A stretch of DNA of 64,000 nucleotides from positions 170,621 to 234,620 of the forward strand of contig QPFY01000024.1 of the NCBI GenBank assembly GCA_003665825.1, given 5' to 3'. Origin of the DNA: Microbotryum silenes-acaulis (lineage: Eukaryota > Basidiomycota > Microbotryomycetes > Microbotryales > Microbotryaceae). Under the pieces are notes generated by a model, which was given only the letters and a program-made list of their open reading frames with translations, was not told the DNA's origin and made no database searches. Made by a program: the position numbers and the translations under genes. This document shows positions 2,588 to 24,737 of the stretch, piece after piece (the first letter of the stretch is position 1; each line of letters opens with the position of its first letter).

Positions 2588-5087
2588 ATGGTCTCTCCTG
2601 GAGCACGATCAAGACCATTGCTGATCGACCCCTCTGCCTTGTCACCGATCGAATACGAGGCTTACTCGATCTTGGTCAATCATGATCATCACCGACGTGG
2701 ACAACCCGAGGAGCCAGAGCAGCAAGGCGCTGAGCAGAGATCACGATCTGGCACCAGTACATCGCCTTCGGAGCTTTGGCAAGTCCTCAAGAGATGGATC
2801 AAGGTCGATGTTGATCCAAAGGTTGAGAAACAGGTGCGTCCACGCTGTGTGAGACGGGTGGGGTCTATTTGGATTGAGGCAGTGCCGCGACGGACTCGGG
2901 CACTCGGTCTCGAGCACACCGAACTCGGGCAGTCGGTGGGCGTGTTATGCGACCTGTATCAAGCAGTGGGAGCTTGCGAGGTGCGGACAAGATCATTCGA
3001 TGGGCATCACTCGATTTGGTCGTACGAGACCATCTCCAACAAGCTCTTTTCGTGGCCGAGTCCACCAGCAACTGTCATGCTGACGACGTCCTGTCCCCTC
3101 CCCTCCCGCGGAAATCTTTCCCGCTTGAATGCAGATCCTCTCCTTCTACCGCGAACCATCAGCAATCCAGACCGACTCATCAGATCGGGAGCGCGCCCCC
3201 TTGCACCTCATGCTAGGCATGCTCCGATTATGGTCCCACTCGTCAACGAACAGGTTCCTCACACGTGATCTAGCCTTCATCCAGAACGATGAGCCCGCGC
3301 AATTGTTTGTGCCTGCTCCTTCTACCGAAATCTCCTTAGTCGAGCAAAATCCCTCTTCGAGTCCGACCTCACCTGCCGTTGCGACGGCTTCGTCGAACCC
3401 CTTCCGCATCACCCCTGTGGCCAGCCCTTCCCCGCCCCCACATCCGGCTGCCGCCGCCAAGACCGTGGAGCAAGATATCACTACGCCTAGCCTCGTCCCC
3501 GTCCCCGTCCCCGTCCCCGTCATCGCAAGTATTAGTCCTGGCCCACCACCTTCCTTGCCTGCCAAGAGGATCGTCAGCGAATCCGGAGTAGCTCCTGCCA
3601 AGAGGGAAATGAACCCCTTCCGATCATCGGCATCGCCTTCAACTTCGACCACCGTAACTCCAAGAGCTGTGCCGAACCAACCCAAAGATGCAGCGACCTC
3701 TTCAACAATCCCATTCCCACCCTCACTACCGCCGAGAAGACCCGCTGTTGTTTCTCCAATCGAACCGCCCCCTCGTCGAGTCTCACTCAAAAAGACCGCC
3801 GATCCACCGTCCAAACCCCGAGTCCCATCTTTGTCCATGACCCACCGACCGGGAGGAGCTGTCCCCATTCCTCCTCCAACACATCGCGCCACTTCTTCCA
3901 CCCCGACCATTTCGTCCAGAACGCCCCACATCTCAACGAGCGGCTACAACCCTTTATCGGATACCTCGAGCCCAGTCGAACCTCTCATCAAAAACCGCAA
4001 CTCATCCTCCTCGTCCAAATTGACCGGCTCGACGCACATCGGTCTCGAGAATTCAGTCCGACTTCTCCCGACGACCGACGAAAGTCCTCATCGACTGACG
4101 ACACGTATGGCCCGTTCCAACTCGGCCATCTCGAATGCTTCGTCGACGACGTCGAACCCGGATGTTGTAGGGACGTATGACGGCCGGATCGTTTATGAAC
4201 GACCTTTTTCGAGAAAGGTCTCGTCCCCAAAGACAACTTATTCCACTTCACGTGGGATGGGAATGACTCCGAAGGATCTAACGGTCGAAGGCATGGAGCT
4301 TGAAGCCAGCAGTAGCGATGATGACGACGGCGAAGACGAACTTGATCGAGCCACGGTCCTTACGGATCCATTACCTACTCGATTGAGGTTCGAAAGTTTC
4401 TCAAACGGGGAGACGATCCGACCTGATCGACTACGTAATCAAGCACCTCTTCAACCCCCTCCAAGACGAGTCATCACTGCACCTAGTAGCTTCCCATTCT
4501 TTAACCTCGACGACAAAGACGATGATCAAGATATTCCTACAGGATGGGGCGCATCAGCATCCACCCTTGCTCGATCAGCGACCCATTCAGGGGCATCTAC
4601 TTCTCGACGTAGATCGGATCTTCCTATAGGAGTGGTGAGGCCGATTCCTCAGAGAGCAAGTTCGTTGTCGTTCGGTGTGCAGAGGAGGAAACGTTTGGTC
4701 GGGAATGAGGTGCCTGGGCCGTGGACACAGGCTGCGAGAGAGGGGGAGGAGTGGATGCATAGGGCTAAAGAGGGGATTGTGAGGAGGACGTCGAGGGGGA
4801 TCAATTTGATCACTACGACGACGGGGTCATCGAAGAGGGAGAGAGGGGAACCGTTAGTCGGAGCTGGCACTGATGATGAGGAGGAGGAAGGGGTGTTCAG
4901 GGACCAGCCTGAGACCGGGAGGGTCGTGGCTTCCGAAGGAGAGGAGGATAGCGATGACGATGATGGAGGAAGAGTCGAACCTGAGCCTCCTGAGAGGGTC
5001 AAGAGGAAGACAGCGGAAGAGGTGAGGAGGGAAGTTGAGAGGGAGGTCAAGAAGAGTCAGGAAATACTTGGGGCGGAGTGGGAGTAG
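2588..5087 (+). CDS. Large Ser/Pro-rich protein, function unknown
   Basis: I place the start at ATG 2588. The first exon runs to about 2835 (donor gtgcgt), a short middle exon encodes ADKIIRWASLDLVVRDHLQQ near 2988-3060, and the long last exon runs from about 3133 to a TAG at 5085-5087. The N-terminal ~180 residues look folded and helical (ALSPIEYEAYSILVNHD, ELWQVLKRWIKVDVD, LHLMLGMLRLWSHSS). The remaining ~560 residues are low-complexity Ser/Pro/Thr with several acidic clusters and a basic C-terminal third. A (CCCGTC)n hexamer run near 3500 encodes a Val-Pro repeat. Both intron phases are slightly awkward with canonical sites, so exon borders are approximate. I do not recognise the family. 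Confidence 0.6.
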
Positions 5088-5791
5088 ATTAGAGGCGCAG
5101 CGCAGCGATCTTACGTTTCACGTGCATGTACTGCTCGTCGGACTTTCCGAGGGAATTAGCTCAGTGCAATACTCAAAAAGAACGCCACCGCACTTTTCCC
5201 TTTCATACAACTTCTCTAGCTCGGTGTGATCGCGATCGGGATTCTTGCTCTGCACCGGTCTAAGCGCTTCGATCGCCGGCGGCTCGATTGGGAATTGAAG
5301 TCGCCGCGCCGCGGTGAGTCCGAATAGCGCATTGCACCGAGGTGCTGTAGCACAATAAGCCGATATGGGCATTTCCGCATTAGAGGAACAAACCTCGAAA
5401 CATGATGGTTCTATCAGTGCATAATCCACATCTCACTGTACCCAGATACCCCGACCCCTTCAGTCCGTGGGCGAAGATTGCGCAGCCTGGGCTGCACCAC
5501 ACGCTCAGGCCATCCGAATGGAACACGAGTTCTCTTCCTCCTTCTGTCCCTGGTTTTTCTTTTTTACTGTTACTTTTTCGTACTGCACGATCACGAGGGC
5601 GTGTACGTGGCCGAGGTCAAGGAATGACGTTGGGCCCGGTTGCCAGCTCCCCGGCCTTGGCCGCAATCGTGAGGTTGGTGCGTCACCTAGACCTCGCAGC
5701 GACCGGCTTTTCATCACTCGTTATGGTGTCGAAGTCGAACGAGTTGGCCGACCTGTGCGAGGTCACGGTCTGCACGAGCACCCTCGGATCG
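5088..5791. other. Island 1 left flank, no clear gene
   Basis: No convincing gene. From about 5590 the sequence reads as a degenerate coding-like stretch that runs into the left arm of the inverted repeat (phrases such as FITRYGVEVERVG, HGLHEHPR). It could be the remaining part of the repeated gene-like sequence that the arms belong to. It is present only on this side and is not mirrored beyond 6983. Confidence 0.35.
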
Positions 5792-6359
5792 TCTCCTGCC
5801 GGCTGCGCCCTCCGGGCCCTTGCCCCGTCCGCGGACCCCACGGCTTCCAGCTCCGAAGCATCGAGGTCGATCGTGAGTCGTCTATGAACATTTCCGCTAT
5901 CGAACGTTCCAGTGCGAACAATGTCCCCGAAGAAGTGACGAGCGTCACTCATGCCATACAAGTCTTTACAGGCGACCCGTCCGCCACGCCGTTCGCCACC
6001 TCATCGACTCCACTGGCTCCATGGCAAGAGGCTCTCCGGTCGTCGCACCCCAAACTCAACGATCTGGCCTTTCCCGCCTCCTCTCTTCTGCTTCACTGGC
6101 AACTCGCACCGAACGATGAGGATCCGCGCCATCTTCTTCCACGTGACATCGAAGTGACCGACGTGTCGTTGAAAGAAGGGCACACGGCAAGCTCGGAGCT
6201 TTAATCCATCATCTACCCATCGTCGTCGCCAGCTCGCAAGCGACCATCGACCCCGCTGGCGCACTCCTGACCGAGAGCCTGATGCCCCGCAAACGGCAAG
6301 ACTTCCAATATCTTCTCTACCCCACACCGACGCCGTCTAGTCTGATGGGTCCGGAGAAG
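5792..6359 (+). repeat. Left arm of a 568-bp inverted repeat
   Basis: This arm is the reverse complement of 6416-6983. Every stretch I compared matched without an indel, with paired positions summing to 12775. The identity breaks sharply at 5791/6984 on the outside and at 6360/6415 on the inside. Read on the plus strand the arm is coding-like: an open stretch of about 105 codons begins at MNISAIERSSANNV near 5883 and includes GDPSATPFATSSTPLAPW. It ends at a TAA at 6202-6204. A related protein-like sequence occurs at 20322-21253. Confidence 0.92.
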
Positions 6360-6415
6360 GTGAGGCATCGATACAAATTCGCAGTCGCCGATAGATTCGG
6401 GGCCCGGTCTTTCGA
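6360..6415. other. 56-bp spacer of the inverted repeat
   Basis: Unique central spacer between the two arms, the predicted hairpin loop. It starts directly after tccggagaag and ends before its mirror image. I see no gene in it. Confidence 0.9.
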
Positions 6416-6983
6416 CTTCTCCGGACCCATCAGACTAGACGGCGTCGGTGTGGGGTAGAGAAGATATTGGAAGTCTTGCCGTTTGCGGGGCATCAGGCTC
6501 TCGGTCAGGAGTGCGCCAGCGGGGTCGATGGTCGCTTGCGAGCTGGCGACGACGATGGGTAGATGATGGATTAAAGCTCCGAGCTTGCCGTGTGCCCTTC
6601 TTTCAACGACACGTCGGTCACTTCGATGTCACGTGGAAGAAGATGGCGCGGATCCTCATCGTTCGGTGCGAGTTGCCAGTGAAGCAGAAGAGAGGAGGCG
6701 GGAAAGGCCAGATCGTTGAGTTTGGGGTGCGACGACCGGAGAGCCTCTTGCCATGGAGCCAGTGGAGTCGATGAGGTGGCGAACGGCGTGGCGGACGGGT
6801 CGCCTGTAAAGACTTGTATGGCATGAGTGACGCTCGTCACTTCTTCGGGGACATTGTTCGCACTGGAACGTTCGATAGCGGAAATGTTCATAGACGACTC
6901 ACGATCGACCTCGATGCTTCGGAGCTGGAAGCCGTGGGGTCCGCGGACGGGGCAAGGGCCCGGAGGGCGCAGCCGGCAGGAGA
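6416..6983 (-). repeat. Right arm of the 568-bp inverted repeat
   Basis: Mirror copy of 5792-6359. The translation of the minus strand over the arm (open frame ending at 6571) is identical to that of the left arm on the plus strand, which confirms the absence of indels. Immediately outside (6984 on) the sequence is unrelated to the left flank. Confidence 0.92.
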
Positions 6984-7908
6984 GTCGTCCTCGGCAGATC
7001 GACTCTCCAGCTTTGAAGTCCGGAAACACCCCGTCGTCAGCTACTCAGGCTTAAGGAGGTGAAGTTGAGGTTTACGTTATATTTTGTTTTCTTCAAAAGG
7101 TGTCATACATGTTACAATTTATGAAGACCTTTCCTCTGGTAAACTAAGTCTCACCAGCAAATAACGCGATCTGAACACCTCGGCAGATCTCGCGGACCGC
7201 CGAAAAATTGACCAAGATTCATTGAAGGCAAGCGGGTCTACGCGGTGGTTCTGGTCGGATCCTACACGTGCTGAATGCCAGCTTTCATGATCCTTAGCAA
7301 ATATTTCGTTTCTACGCGACAGCCATTGCTGCGTTCACAAATTGTACAAGGCGGCGCAGGGTGCAGTCGACAGGTTGAACTCGAAGGAACCCTCGAAGGG
7401 CTACTGGCGGGCGGCCAAGGACGCGCTCACTCAAGCTATGGCTGATGCGAGGAAGGTTTATCTTCTTCAGGTGAGTTCTTGAGTAGGAGCCTCTTGAATA
7501 ATGTTAATGATTGCTACCACACAGTCGAAGGAGATCAGCGATCACATTGCGCAGCACCGCAATCGGATCTACCTAATGGCCAGAGATGTCAACAACTCCC
7601 TGGTATTTTCCGACAAGCAGATGGCGTACTGGTGCTTGGGAGTGAGCGCTAGAATGCTACCAGTTTCTGCCATGTGCCAAGCTGATCCCCTGAATACCTT
7701 GATCTGGCGGGGCGCTCGGTGAGCATGGGTCTTCCCATTCCGCTTCGAGGAAAGTTAGGACGCTTTTCCCTGTTCCGATTGAGAATAGCTCGTTGAGAAA
7801 AGGACACGCCACAGGCGTCGGTTTACAGGCGTCAGCATCTACTACGAATCATAGGATGCAATGTCACAGACAAGGAGAGGTCCGGTCGGCTCGACCCTAT
7901 ACTAGAAC
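6984..7908. other. Accessory region with possible exon remnants
   Basis: The first ~250 bp are comparatively AT-rich and hold nothing I can name. At 7345-7470 and 7524-7640 (plus strand) two open stretches read as helical protein segments (YKAAQGAVDRLNSKEPSKGY, then SKEISDHIAQHRNRIYLMAR). They are separated by a plausible intron (gtgagt at about 7471, cacag near 7523). They look like two exons of an unrecognised gene or relic. No start or end can be supported. Confidence 0.35.
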
Positions 7909-10170
7909 CTACTGGGACGTCTCTCTCCCCATCGAGCGTCTCGCTGCGAGCCGTCGTATCCCCTCCTGTATCGCGTCCATCGCCTGCGATCGCTCATCGG
8001 ACGTATACAGCGAGGTTACCTTTACTGGACAGAGCCGCGTCACCAAGTCCAACGACTCGCCTAGCTCGGAATCTTCACGGCGAAGCATGTTGATCAAAAG
8101 CTCCCTGTACTGCGGTTTCACGTCGTTGCCGCCGCCCTCGCCCCAGAGACTCGCCCGACGGTCTATCAGTTGCGCCTCCCGATCTTCAGAATAGCGTGGA
8201 CGCGCACCTGGGCGGGCGGCGGGACATCGAAAGAAGTAGTCCCAGGCAGGGTCCTCTGGCCTGATGCGGTAGACCAGGGCATGAAATAGGCAATACACAG
8301 CCGATTCAAACGCGTGGACTAGCCTGTACTCAGGTGCACGATTATTGCAATCCAATCCAACCACGTTGCAAAGAAGCGCCTGTCGAGGAGCGCTTTCCAC
8401 CGTCACCCGGAGGCGGCCGTCTTCTTGGGCCACGATGGCGAACGAGGCTCCCGGATCGGCCACGACGCCGCCATCCCAATCAATGAGTACAAGGTGGCCG
8501 GCAAAGTGGAGGATGTTGCCGAGCGAAAGATCGCGGTGGTGGAAGCCGAGACCGTGAAGCGTGGTCAGCACCGTCAGGAGTTGATCGAAGACTTGGAAAA
8601 CTTGAGCCAGAGGTATGCTGGCCACGATGACGCCGGAAGAGCGGCTGTGGCAGTGGCGACGGGTTGCGCAGAATAAGCAGCTCGAGTGAGCGTCGTATTG
8701 GGGTATGCAGCGGGGTGCGCCACGTTTTGTTACGCCTCCTCTTTTTCGAGGCGGGCATTGATGCTGCTGACGACTGGTCTTCATCGTCTACCGGCAAGCC
8801 CGAGTCAAGGGAGAGGGACGCCGAAGTTTCGAGCGTAGCCAGGTGGTCAAACACGGCCGGTAGTAGAGCACCCTTGTCGCACGCGGCGTTGATCGTGCGA
8901 AGCACGTTTGACTCGACGCGTACAAAGTCCGGACCGACGAGCTGCATTTTCAGGACGAAAGAGGGCGATAAAGTGGAGACCTCCGGAGCGGTGGCGGTGG
9001 CGCTCAGGCTCGGGCGCGTCAGTTGAAACACCGTCGTGCATCGTCCGGAGAAATGGTGCCCGCCTTCCACTTTCGCACAGGACAAAAGCTCGATTGGCTC
9101 TTTGTCCTCAAATGTGACTGCGCGCCCGACGGATGACCCAAAGCCCGACATGAGTAACGACGCGGGTGCAATACCGCTCGTGGGGTGGCACGTGTAGTCG
9201 AAAAAGGGACAAAACCCGGCCGAGTAGACATCCAGGTCGAGCAGAATCGAGAGCACCGCAGCTAGCTCGCCAAAGCCTTGACCCCAGCAGTCCGAGATGG
9301 TCGCGACTCGACACGTTTCTTGGTCCAGTACGACCAGATATGACTTCCTGTCGCTGACGGCCAAGCCAGGGGCGAATAGTCGGGTTGGTTGCGAGAGCAC
9401 ATGCTCGGTTAGATCGAGTACCACCCTGACCAGCTCGGGCGCAGGTGCTCCAGGGCCATCGCCGGGGAACGGAGAGCGAGGTCGGGCACCGAACGCGCAT
9501 GGCACCAGCACGCGGTTCCACAAGAGTGTTTTTGAGCTCGTGTCGACTTTGCAGCATGCCAAGAAAGGCGTCCACTCTTTCGGTTCCTTGTCCGACTCTT
9601 GCCTAGAGTCAAATGGCCGCTCGATAATGTCGCTGAGAGAAAGCCGAGCCGGTCGCTCGGCAGTTGCAGCGGCGAGTTTAAATTGTTTCCCGTGCGTGGG
9701 ATCGGTCTGAGCCTACCGCAGACGAACGCCAGTTCGGTCAGATAGACGGGACTGGTGTCGGCTTAGCCCTCCAAGCACCCGTGCTCAACGAGCGATGTCG
9801 ATCTACATTTCGGTCGTCCTGACTTACAAGTCGTGCTACCCCCTGCATCCAGGTCAACTGGCTGGTCGAGGGTTCAATCCGCGGGTCCTGACTACTGTCG
9901 TGGGCTTCCAGGAAAAGTTTGCGGAGCTCGGCCTGGGTGTCTTGATCCTGGCCGGACGGAACCTGTTTACCTGACTGGCGAGCACGTTGTGAGATCTCTT
10001 CGAACGCCGGATGGTCGAATCCAAGTACCTGCTCGACCAATTCCGGCGCCGAGCGCAACGGAAGGCGGGGTACGATGACGCCTTTGAGCAGAGCGTAATC
10101 CTTAATGTGTGGCAGTGGTCGGTCCCGTCCTCGAGAGCTGCGACCACTGGGTCCAGGTCGCACATCGTGG
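7909..10170 (-). pseudogene. FunK1-type protein-kinase-like gene, frame broken
   Basis: Member of the fungal FunK1 kinase-like family. The N-terminal region includes ELVEQVLGFDHPAFEEISQR (near 9990-10040). An intron from GTAAGT after MQGVARL (about 9829) to ctcag (about 9708) joins it to TDPTHGKQFKLAAATAERPA. The middle contains VVLDLTEHVLSQPTRLFAPG and DCWGQGFGELAAVLSILLDL, typical of the family. The catalytic loop is HRDLSLGNIL (near 8520) and the metal-binding motif is DWD instead of DFG. Between 8620 and 8740 the frame changes by one base and I find no GT-AG intron that explains it. Either the gene is broken or the assembly lost a base, so I list it as a pseudogene with reservation. Its 5' exon start is uncertain (10100-10300). 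A deleted copy lies at 23159-24233. Confidence 0.65.
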
Positions 10171-20361: not shown

Positions 20362-20712
20362 TCGCCAAGGCCTTCAATGGCGACCCGTCCGCCACCACAT
20401 CCACGCCCCTGGCTCCATGGCAGGTGCTCTCCGGTCGTCGAACAGCAACCTCGATGGTCTGGTCCTTGTCACCTCGTCCATCGAACTGCACTGGCAGCTG
20501 GCGCCCAAAGATGGCGACCCGCACCGACTCCTCCCAAGAGCCATTGAAGTCACCGACGTCCTGTTGAAACACGAGCACAAGCTCGGACGGATCATGCATC
20601 ATCTTCCTCTCGTCATAGCGATCCCACAAGCGACGATTGACCCCGCCAGGCAGATTCCGACCGAATACCTGCTACCTCGCAAACGACAAGATCTGCTCTA
20701 CGTACTCTACCC
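20362..20712 (+). repeat. Left arm of a diverged inverted repeat (island 2)
   Basis: Pairs with 20818-21174 in inverted orientation. Anchor matches include gcaaacgacaagat at 20679-20692 against 20837-20850 and ggctcc at 20411 against 21121-21126. The sum of paired positions drifts from 41529 to 41537, so small indels have accumulated. The sequence family is the same as the 5792-6983 repeat: the plus-strand reading has GDPSAT, STPLAPW and ELHWQLAPKDGDPHRLLPR, which parallels SLLLHWQLAPNDEDPRHLLP in the other locus. Confidence 0.85.
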
Positions 20713-20817
20713 TCGATGCTTCGTACGCCTCGAGACAGACCCCCTCAGTCGCCGGCGGATCCGGGGCCTGGCCCTTCACCTTCTCCGGGCACGTGAGGCG
20801 AGACGGCGTCGGCGTCG
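20713..20817. other. 105-bp spacer of the second inverted repeat
   Basis: Central non-palindromic segment. On the minus strand it still belongs to the repeat family (reads TCPEKVKGQAPDPPATEG after YPTPTPSRL). This suggests that an originally longer palindrome was trimmed on one side. Confidence 0.65.
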
Positions 20818-21174
20818 GGTAGAGCGTGCAAAGAAATCTTGTCGTTTGCGAGGTAGCGGGTCTGTGGTCAGAACCTGCCTGGCGGGGTCGATCGTCGCTT
20901 GCGAGCCTGCGACGACGACAGCAAAAAGATGCATGATCTGTCCGAGCTTGTGCCCTGTGTTTCAACAGGACGTCCGCGACTTCAAGGGCTCTTGCCACTG
21001 CATAGGAGCCGGTGCGCGTCGCCAACATTGGGGGCCAGCCGCCAGTGCAGTTCGATGGACGAGGTGGGAAGGACTCGACCATCGAGGTTGCTGTTCGACG
21101 ACCGGAGAGCCACCTACCTTGGAGCCAGGGGCGTAGACGTGGTGGCGGACGGGTCGCTAGTGAAGGCCTTGACT
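20818..21174 (-). repeat. Right arm of the diverged inverted repeat (island 2)
   Basis: Mirror of 20362-20712 with roughly 80% identity by eye. The minus strand keeps an open frame of 193 codons (20672-21253). It starts MDITNIGRFSANNA, related to MNISAIERSSANNV of the other locus, but passes through two frames of the family consensus, so the protein is probably not functional. Confidence 0.82.
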
Positions 21175-23158
21175 TGAGGGCGTACCAGACGGCCGTCACG
21201 CCTGCGAAGGGCGCGTTGTTGGCACTGAAGCGTCCAATGTTGGTGATGTCCATTAGGAGCGACTACGGAGACAGATTAATGTGGACTTGTGGGAAAGGGT
21301 CCAGCCTGCACCGATAATTTGAAAGTGGGAAGAGGAAATCGTCCGCATTCAGCGATCGATGCGATGTGGCAAGCTCGCAGTGCCAGCGTCATGATCGCGC
21401 CGGCGTTATACCACACCGACCAGCCCGATGATCGTGCCTCGGACACACCGACATCCACCCTTGAATTGGCCCTATTCGGCCATGAATCCGGTTCTTGCTG
21501 CCTCAATCCGTTCGGTTGGTCCTTGTAGCCATCCCTCCCATCAATCGCCTGCTCGACTCGGGTGCACGTTTCTTTGTAAAATTGAGGGGCAGAGCTCCGC
21601 AGCTCCTATGTGTGATGTAGTCCACCCAAACCTTTACCTCGACCATGTGAATGTAGCCGGTCCACTCTATACCGTGCATTATCTCGTTCTCTCGTGTCTT
21701 CATGTTCGAACTGTTGTCATGGGTAGCAGTCGAGGTGGGGACTCGGGAGGATGATGATGTCGCGGCTGCCAGCTGCGGCTCGGAAGAGCTCACGTCGGCC
21801 CAGCGCGTCGACTCGCTCGGTGTCTTGACTTCTTCGTGGGTGGTTCGGTAAATGTCATCCATTCGGATGGGTGGGAAGGGGTGTGGATGGATGAACCAGA
21901 TGAAAAGCGTAAGTGATGCCAATCTCCGACCCTTGGCAGTCGGAACTTGGATGGCTCCTCTTGCGCAGCCAAGCGTCGCTTAAACTTCGCGCTCAGCGCT
22001 CGGATCTGCAGAGCAGCTGCGTGGCTCTAGAGTCGGGCGCAGGTGCACTAGCTCGCGAGCTGGATCCTGGAGACGGCCGCGGCCGTGGCATCCACCTGAC
22101 AGCTCCATCTGAAGAGTGACTAGTGACTCACGCTAGAATAAATCTTCAACAATAGCTGGCCTGTCTGGGCACACTCGACTACTGCAACGGGCAGCGACTC
22201 GAATCAATCGACCCTCGTGACCGTCGGGTGGGGCCCCGCATAAGGTATCATTTTTGGGCTGCCAGTGCACGTGCTTCAGACGATTCCTCCGACTTTATGC
22301 GAGTGTTACACTGTCATGCACCGCGAGGCATTGTGCCTCGATGTAATCTCTCTAAATACATCACTTGAGATCACAAAGCAGCCCTCTTCACACCCCATAA
22401 ATCCCGCATTTTACTTTCGAGCATGAGAAAGAAAAAATAAAGGGGACAGAGAAACTAAACAGTGCGAATCCGGGGCCCATGTACGTACCTCATGTTCCTT
22501 AAACCCTGTTTCTGTTCATATTGCGGGACGGATATTAGGAATGTATCAATGTACTGTTAGACCTGCCTCCCTTGTCCACGTTCCGATCAGAGGCCAGTCC
22601 TGCAGATTCGGAAACTGGTTTGTCGGGGGGCCAAGCTTGTTTCTCAACTTTTCCTGCAGGCTCTTTGGGTCAACGATAAGGCACTTACTTACAGCTACTT
22701 ACAGCAGCGGGTGGCTGCGGTCCCGGTATCGGCACAGTGACTGTCACTCTGAGAAAGTGGCTGCCGGTCGCCCCCCGCTCGCCCGAAGATGCCGACGGAC
22801 CGACTGGGGCCCATGGCATTCCCAGCGACCGCTAGATGAATCCCATCCGACATACGAAATCTTTCTGTTGCAGCATTCTTTCATTTCTCTCCGTACTATT
22901 CCATACTTCTCAGTTCTTGACGCTCTTGTTGCGTATGATCGTGTCCCATTACCTCAACGGATGAGTCTCTACCTTGTGAAGTAAGTCAAAAGATCGCTGC
23001 GAGGAAGCTGAGGGTAGGACGCTCGCACCTGTTCGAAGTAAGGGTGCTCCTCATGGAGAGTTCGGCTATAGTTACAGGCACAAGTATATACCACCAGTCG
23101 TAGCACGGAATGGCGGATACAAAAAGATGTCTGGTCGGCTCGAGCCCGGCACTAGATT
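21175..23158. other. Accessory region without supported genes
   Basis: About 2 kb with only short scattered open frames. I see no domain, RNA gene or further repeat. The stretch 22300-22520 is comparatively AT-rich. It may be decayed mobile or accessory DNA, but nothing positive supports that. Confidence 0.4.
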
Positions 23159-24233
23159 CTACGACTCGGTGGACATTGCCTTTCCCTTCCAGCGTCTCGC
23201 TGTGAGCTCTCGTATTGCCACCCGGATCGCGTCCTTTGCTGGCGAGCGCTCATCCGAGGTATACGGCGAGGTCATCTTCACCGGGCAGAGCCGTGTCACC
23301 GAGTCCAACGAGTCGCCCAGTTCGGGATCTTCACGACGGATCATGTCCATCAAACGCTCCCTGTGCTGCGGATCCACGTCGTGGCCCGCGCCCTCGCTCC
23401 AGAGACTCGCCCGACGGTCCACCAGTTCGAAAAAGGGACAAAAACCGGCCGAGTAGACATCCAGGTCGAGCAGAATCGAGAGCACCGCAGCTAGCTCGTC
23501 AAAGCCTTGACCCCAGCAGTCCAAGATGGTCTTGGTCCAGTACGACCAGATATGCCTTCCTGTCGCTGACGGCCAAGCCAGGGGCGAACAGTCGGGTTGG
23601 TTGCGAGAGCACATGCTCGGTTAGATCGAGTACCACCCTGACCAGCTCGGGCGCAAATGCCCCCGGTCCACCGGGGAACTGAGAGCGCTGAGGGGAAGCA
23701 TCGAACGCGCATGGCACCAGCACGCGGTTCCACAAGAGTGTTTTTGAGCTCGTGTCGACTTTGCAGCATGCCAAGAAAGGCGTCCACTCTTTCGGTTCCT
23801 TGTCCGACTCTTGCCTAGAGTCAAATGGCCGCTCGATAATGTCGCTGAGAGAAAGCCGAGCCGGTCGCTCGGCAGTTGCAGCGGCGAGTTTAAATTGTTT
23901 CCCGTGCGTGGGATCGGTCTGAGCCTACCGCAGACGAACGCCAGTTCGGTCAGATAGACGGGACTGGTGTCGGCTTAGCCCTCCAAGCACCCGTGCTCAA
24001 CGAGCGATGTCGATCTACATTTCGGTCGTCCTGACTTACAAGTCGTGCTACCCCCTGCATCCAGGTCAACTGGCTGGTCGAGGGTTCAATCCGCGGGTCC
24101 TGACTACTGTCGTGGGCTTCCAGGAAAAGTTTGCGGAGCTCGGCCTGGGTGTCTTGATCCTGGCCGGACGGAACCTGTTTACCTGACTGGCGAGCACGTT
24201 GTGAGATCTCGTCGAACGCGGGATGATCGATTC
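23159..24233 (-). pseudogene. FunK1-type pseudogene with deleted kinase core
   Basis: Deleted duplicate of the 7909-10170 gene. The N-terminal part (23430-24233) is nearly identical to copy 1 at 9195-10023 and includes LTEHVLSQPTRLFAPGLAVS. Copy 2 lacks 17 bases between gatggt and cttggtcc (near 23530; copy 1 has them at 9300-9317), which shifts the frame. After DELAAVLSILLDLDVYSAGF and CPFFE the sequence jumps directly to LVDRRASLWSEGAG, which in copy 1 lies about 1 kb further on. This removes the HRD loop, the DWD motif and most of the kinase fold. The remaining C-terminal part (23159-23425) is only ~80% identical to copy 1. Not functional as a kinase. Confidence 0.88.
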
Positions 24234-24737
24234 CAAATGTCATGCAGGCAGAGGAGGACTACCGTCAGCGATGCCGCAACCTAGGCTAAGCCCCACCCGG
24301 CAGGTTGCAAGAGGCTGCAAGAGGCGACTCACGGGCGCGCGGAGCGAGACGAGGAAAATGCGCCGACAAGTGCTCGAGCCTCTCTCATTCTACAACATCT
24401 GTTCTCGTTCGCAGTCATTCGACTGTTCTCTCGCTGATGAATTCCGATTTTTTACTGCTCTCCCGCCCGCTTCTCTGGTCTTGCCTCCCGTTGCTTTCGC
24501 TGCCTTGCTGGTTCCTTCGCGGGCCCGTATCGCGGGGTAATTCGCCCCGAAACCCAAACACTTTTACCAAAATAACTTAGACTACTAACTCTCAGACTAG
24601 TATTGTTCGATCGACGAACTGATCGCACATCTGATAATTCTCAAAATATTGACTGCGCTTTCGACGACTCGAGCGACGATAGCGCCTTATGGACTCGCCC
24701 ACGGGCTTGGTCGTTGCTCAGCGCTGCAGCCTTCGTC
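24234..24737. other. Island 2 right part, no gene
   Basis: No supported gene. The homology to the FunK1 5' region ends at about 24233 and the EXPERA 3' copy begins near 24738. Short open stretches only. Confidence 0.4.

Follow-up and report, generated by a model that had tools for sequence, protein, structure and literature searches.

A perfect inverted repeat of kinase-like pseudogene sequence and its diverged sister in the fungus Microbotryum silenes-acaulis

How does a genome come to hold two arms of more than half a kilobase that are perfect inverted copies of one another, and does it make use of the hairpin RNA that such arms could encode? Here, we describe a locus of this kind, repeat 1, in a 64,000-nucleotide stretch of DNA from the fungus Microbotryum silenes-acaulis (C24:170621-234620). 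We refer to this whole stretch as the “window”; the genome searched with it comprises 29.85 Mb in 88 contigs. Repeat 1 is a real, gene-derived inverted repeat, and it has a diverged sister, repeat 2, 14 kb away in the same window (Table 1). It is ordinary in kind and a good test case. The two paralogous hairpins, one apparently homogenized recently and the other decaying, form a natural experiment on the lifetime of gene-derived hairpins, and the pair bears on whether arm identity reflects conversion or selection on the RNA, as well as on whether such hairpins are used by fungal RNAi. The explanation that we favor, with a probability of roughly 0.6, is that one ancestral gene-derived inverted repeat was duplicated, and that the arms were later homogenized by gene conversion.

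Table 1. Features of the two inverted repeats and of the kinase-like sequences around them (positions in the window)
Feature	Position	Strand	Remarks
Kinase-like pseudogene fragment	5657..6338	+	tblastn; residues 64-284 of the C7 relative; covers the greater part of the repeat 1 left arm
Repeat 1, left arm	5792..6359	+	568 nt; middle piece of the kinase-like pseudogene; continuous with upstream kinase sequence
Repeat 1, spacer (hairpin loop)	6360..6415	.	56 nt; same-orientation alignment to the center of repeat 2
Repeat 1, right arm	6416..6983	-	Perfect inverted copy; outer flank without kinase match
Block A, kinase-like gene or pseudogene	7823..10024	-	Paralogous to 23072-24236
Kinase remnant, 12 codons	20332..20367	+	Directly before the left arm of repeat 2; 9/12 residues, E = 0.005
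Repeat 2, left arm	20366..20714	+	300/342 aligned bases identical to the right arm
Repeat 2, center	20715..20817	.	Spacer and spacer/right-arm junction common to repeat 1; left side without part of the inner arm
Repeat 2, right arm	20818..21171	-	Kinase homology runs outward to ~21253, past the counterpart of the left arm
Block B, kinase-like copy, partly deleted	23072..24236	-	Arranged with repeat 2 in the same order and orientation as in block A

Anatomy of repeat 1 and the origin of its arms

An inverted-repeat search of positions 4500-8500, together with a base-by-base check, found the arms of repeat 1 to be complementary at 568 of 568 positions (100%), with 0 mismatches. Directly beyond the arm edges, both outward and into the spacer, pairing drops to chance level, and the sole further pair listed for the searched region is 23 nt long at 74%. 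An earlier note on this DNA had described a perfect 568-bp inverted repeat with a 56-bp spacer and sharp edges, and that description is exact. Across the window, self-inverted matches with E <= 1e-3, within 5 kb and after low-complexity filtering, are limited to repeat 1 and 20366-21171. Repeat 1 is far above chance expectation. Rfam gave 0 matches at the gathering threshold over positions 1-30000, and a check for foreign DNA against a plasmid collection found no match. On its outer right edge, repeat 1 has a small fold-back that was considered as a copy of the left junction and rejected, the alignment being at chance level (20 of 500 shuffles as good).

The arms resemble a kinase-like sequence on C7. 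In tblastn, 5657-6338 matches this C7 relative in three successive frames, with 47%, 41%, and 48% amino acid identity, and one of the pieces has an internal stop. The first piece (5657-5875, 47% amino acid identity) crosses the left-arm edge at 5792. With its shifting frames and internal stop, the arm sequence is a frameshifted kinase-like pseudogene. On the outer side of the right arm, beyond 6983, a tblastn search with the C7 protein found no kinase match; positions 7201-7705 belong to a different sequence family, which matches C4, C11, and C9 at 71-72% and has shorter matches on C8 and C5. Since the upstream kinase sequence continues from the left arm and not from the right, the left arm is in its native setting and the right arm is the inverted copy.

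These flanks also bear on whether repeat 1 is a foldback transposon or a MITE. The genome holds multi-copy inverted-repeat elements (e.g., L042 9028-9999 and L045 22-863), as an explanation of this kind would have it. However, one relative of repeat 1 was found genome-wide at the DNA level, and its left arm runs into kinase-like sequence without an insertion boundary. On the grounds of copy number and the native left flank, a foldback transposon was rejected for repeat 1; this explanation is largely refuted, and we give an element of either type almost no chance.

The C7 relative lies within a 376-codon stop-to-stop open frame (L041 4394-5524) identified by whole-genome protein searches. Searching the genome with its protein gave 37 matches, a count that includes itself and several matches per locus, and some of these lie in frames of 500-800 codons. 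In a large protein collection, 7993 candidates were scored and none was a homologue of the C7 relative at E <= 1e-3, and the five frames over repeats 1 and 2 matched no Pfam family at E <= 1. Neighboring or related frames gave matches to APH, Pkinase, or PF17667, all of them weak and below the curated Pfam cut-offs. The best PF17667 score came from the C4 relative (L057), of which a 399-aa piece reached 16.3 bits where the cut-off is 24.1; the sequences scanned were pieces rather than full-length members. The likeness to FunK1 / Pkinase_fungal (PF17667) consists of weak PF17667, APH, or Pkinase matches in pieces of members of the kinase family, and the difference is that the matches here are all sub-cut-off. 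Because every Pfam match sits below its curated cut-off, we treat the FunK1 name for the origin of the arms as a lead suggested by these scores. The neighboring kinase frame in the window carries the motif HRDLSLGN, which we take to be the catalytic loop.

Repeat 2 and the origin of the pair

The sequence at 20.3-21.2 kb had been described in the earlier note as a diverged copy of repeat 1. It is related, but it is not a plain copy: 20366-21171 is itself an inverted repeat, a feature that had been missed; its identity to its reverse complement is 80% over the full length and 88% for the arms alone. At ungapped sites, arm identity is 100% within repeat 1, 88% within repeat 2, and 76% between repeat 1 and either arm of repeat 2; by BLAST, with gaps, the two repeats are 68% identical. 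Among 344 sites that are ungapped in repeat 1 and both arms of repeat 2, all three sequences agree at 224 and all three differ at 13. Of the other sites in this set, 73 group the arms of repeat 2 together, 22 place repeat 1 with the left one of these arms, and 12 place it with the right one. With the C7 relative as an outgroup, the informative sites divide in the same order as 19 : 5 : 4. The arms are more alike within each repeat than with the homologous arms of the sister repeat.

The meaning of this pattern depends on the relative age of the repeat and of the duplication that gave rise to the pair. If the repeat is older than the duplication, the likeness of arms within each repeat implies arm-to-arm homogenization in both copies. 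If the repeat is not older, there must have been two inverted duplications that turned at almost one point. The centers of the repeats bear on this choice. The spacer of repeat 1 matches the center of repeat 2 at 36 of 49 bases in the same orientation, with a score of 40, and the maximum among single-base shuffles was 22 (0 of 200 as good); in the opposite orientation, the score is that expected by chance. The junction between spacer and right arm also aligns between the repeats. In both, it is the left arm and not the right that is joined to upstream kinase sequence, strongly in repeat 1 and over 12 codons in repeat 2. Chiefly because the centers are common to both repeats, we favor a single origin over two duplications.

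The repeats are not alike where the left arm meets the center, nor at the outer ends of the arms. Alignment of their outer flanks, compared with shuffles, revealed no convincing homology: 5 of 50 shuffles were as good for the right flank and 1 of 50 for the left, and 53 of 200 were as good for the outermost part of the right arm. When the C7 relative was compared with the four repeat stretches, just one of them, the right side of repeat 2, beat the shuffles (2 of 200), and it did so over arm sequence, so that the native direction of the spacer is not given by this comparison.

Each repeat is part of a larger block, block A at 5.4-10.6 kb and block B at 20.3-24.3 kb. The order in both is the same, i.e., an inverted repeat and then a minus-strand kinase-like copy. 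The gap between the repeat and the kinase homology is ~0.84 kb in block A versus ~1.9 kb in block B. Because this spacing is unequal and the outer flanks have no convincing homology, a duplication relating the two blocks would appear not to have been clean. As a separate observation, 9198-10024 and 23427-24236, within the kinase-like copies, are 95% identical, versus merely 76% for 7823-8171 and 23072-23427, a contrast that suggests conversion or exchange between blocks A and B. A third kinase-like copy, with 86% identity, lies at C5:99819-102002.

For a single origin, we propose the following series of events. A 56-nt spacer separates a frameshifted, truncated kinase-like piece from its own last 568 nt, present again in inverted orientation. 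This arrangement would have formed once, and would then have been copied, along with the adjacent kinase gene, to give blocks A and B. The flanks would have been rearranged or would have diverged after the block duplication, a step at which the flank result counts against the proposal. Lastly, arm-to-arm gene conversion, the presumed homogenizer, would have re-equalized the arms, very recently in repeat 1 (100%) and longer ago in repeat 2 (88%).

The pair could instead have arisen by independent, repeated inverted duplications, with the kinase region as a template-switching hotspot, an old repeat 2, a very recent repeat 1, and no role for conversion. Independent duplications at almost one point would give an identical arm pattern, with arms clustering within repeats (73 : 22 : 12), and the common center that argues for a single origin comprises 49 bases only. 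At a third locus of the kinase family (L043 7382-7603), there is a separate short inverted repeat with a different turn, which shows that inverted copies can arise repeatedly in this family. The differing inner and outer arm ends, and outer flanks without convincing homology, likewise fit independent events. However, repeats 1 and 2 can be aligned across the spacer and its junction with the right arm, and the position of both repeats before a minus-strand kinase paralogue would have to be a coincidence if they arose independently. We regard independent duplications as possible but doubtful. The “very recent inverted duplication” suggested in the earlier note is not needed if, as the common center suggests, the repeat is older and its arms have been homogenized.

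The earlier note had also allowed for a palindromic assembly artifact. An artifact of assembly or library preparation would account for the perfect identity of the arms, and short-read polishing can render arms falsely identical. Against it stand the flanks, which are unlike on the two sides of repeat 1, with the right flank made up of the different sequence family that matches C4, C11, C9, C8, and C5, and the presence at a second site of a diverged repeat with an alignable center. Given the differing flanks and the second repeat with a common center, we consider an artifact very improbable.

Arm-to-arm gene conversion, the homogenizer in our preferred reading, is described for the palindromes of primate X chromosomes (PMC8981503). 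The likeness is that arms are more similar than their age would permit. The primate palindromes have arms of tens of kilobases or more and are conserved across species, whereas the arms of repeat 1 are 0.57 kb long and the pair consists of two loci in one genome (PMC8981503).

The predicted hairpin RNA and its possible targets

In the predicted fold of the 1192-nt transcript of repeat 1, all 568 pairs lie in one unbroken stem with an energy of -1331.9 kcal/mol. This agrees with the earlier proposal that a read-through transcript would fold into a hairpin of ~570 bp. Long hairpins are also predicted for both strands of repeat 2 (z = -37.6 and -39.4, with 20 shuffles each). The genome encodes an RdRP and a Dicer-like protein, the latter with Dicer_dimer and two RNase III matches. 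The genome also has two Argonaute-like genes with PAZ, Mid, and Piwi matches, and one of these genes has stop codons inside the Piwi match. In the second Argonaute-like gene, L048/L051 (C7:1143690-1147474), one Piwi-matched stretch spans two stop codons, consistent with either an intron or a pseudogene.

Loci with a similar architecture are found in a rust fungus. In Puccinia striiformis f. sp. tritici, long inverted repeats account for 14 of the 33 sRNA loci that overlap genes; some consist of gene pairs arranged tail to tail, and the predicted fungal sRNA targets include FunK1 kinases (PMC4578785). These loci are like repeat 1 in that they are long inverted repeats built of gene sequence. 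They differ in that the featured P. striiformis pairs have ESTs and mapped 18-22-nt reads (PMC4578785), whereas both arms here are frameshifted pseudogene fragments described from genomic DNA. Because RNAi genes are encoded in the genome and rust-fungus sRNA loci have a like architecture (PMC4578785), it is plausible that the hairpin of repeat 1 would be processed by Dicer if it were transcribed. Read-through transcription would give rise to long dsRNA, Dicer would cleave it, and the proposed siRNAs would mainly target repeat 1 itself or repeat 2, because the searches described below revealed no further close target.

These searches covered the genome in two ways and selected regions in a third. 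A whole-genome DNA search with the repeat 1 locus, which has limited sensitivity, returned only the locus itself and repeat 2. One well-conserved 23-mer, searched genome-wide with <=3 mismatches, occurred only in both arms and once in repeat 2 (1 mismatch). Among the 548 arm 21-mers, those that recur with <=3 mismatches number 25 (+) and 49 (-) in the rest of the window, the best of them in repeat 2, 4 (+) and 0 (-) in L041, and 0 and 0 in L043. Apart from repeat 2, no close silencing target emerged from the DNA search, the single 23-mer genome-wide, or the 21-mers in the window, L041, and L043.

The earlier note had proposed a hairpin aimed at other copies of the sequence. In its full form, this would be a working hairpin-siRNA gene under selection that silences kinase-like paralogues in trans. 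Such a gene would make sense of the perfect 568-bp stem in the predicted fold and would have an RNAi gene set to act through, and the tail-to-tail inverted-repeat sRNA loci and predicted FunK1 targets reported in P. striiformis (PMC4578785) offer a parallel. However, the genome-wide DNA search hit only two loci, the other copy being repeat 2, itself a hairpin; the 23-mer is confined to the arms and repeat 2; and the near-matching 21-mers number 25/49 in the rest of the window, 4/0 in L041, and 0/0 in L043. Repeat 2 also has no pairing-preserving bias. The 42 differences between its arms comprise 8 of the G.U type and 15 of the A.C type on the plus-strand transcript and 19 others, which amounts to no significant G.U bias on either transcript (8 versus 15). 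Because of this, repeat 2 bears no apparent sign of selection for RNA pairing. We consider silencing in trans unlikely.

A broader version of the idea is a recurrent system in which an expanded kinase family would turn its own fragments into tail-to-tail hairpins, at three loci, with the arms kept alike for self-directed siRNAs that would hold the family in check. We find this quite improbable. Elsewhere, pseudogene-derived hairpin loci that yield endo-siRNAs, and plant miRNAs that arose by inverted duplication, come with small-RNA evidence and defined targets. Repeat 1 resembles these in that an inverted copy of part of a gene, itself non-coding, should be able to fold into long dsRNA; it differs from them in being known from its sequence. 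In the literature, we found no work that joins a fungus, a pseudogene, an inverted repeat, and hairpin siRNA. Small RNAs on repeat 1 but not on repeat 2, if that were the case, would tie arm identity to function.

Inverted repeats elsewhere in the genome

Among control stretches of 10 kb each (L046 and L059-L063), 0 of 6 have an inverted repeat at E <= 1e-3, in a thin background sample of six hand-chosen stretches. A first scan at E <= 1e-6 omitted L001-L020 except L009 and L011, most of the omitted stretches being copies of the window's own repeats. At this threshold, inverted repeats occur in L042, L043, and L045, three of the seven 10-kb stretches (L041-L047) that surround family loci or lie next to the window, and also in L030 and L031.

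The inverted repeat in L043 (7382-7603; C7:1423381-1423602) is short, with 71% identity over 228 columns and an outer ~60 nt that is nearly identical. It lies within another kinase-like pseudogene, of the same kinase family as repeats 1 and 2, and its center has no detectable homology to the centers of those repeats. L043 also contains a 33-nt inverted pair.

The remaining loci involve other sequences. L042 9028-10000, on C7, has 384-nt inverted arms that are 99% alike and belongs to a repeat family with 194 matches from the best 40 of 102 candidates; it is probably a transposon. L045 22-863 (C24:121021-121862) consists of two copies of a repeated element of ~350 nt in inverted tandem; many contigs carry additional dispersed copies (86 matches), and another inverted pair is located at C2:959994-960711. 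Lastly, L030 165-335 and L031 2859-3029, matching loci on C23 and C2, hold a 171-nt near-palindrome, at 87%, that looks like a MITE.
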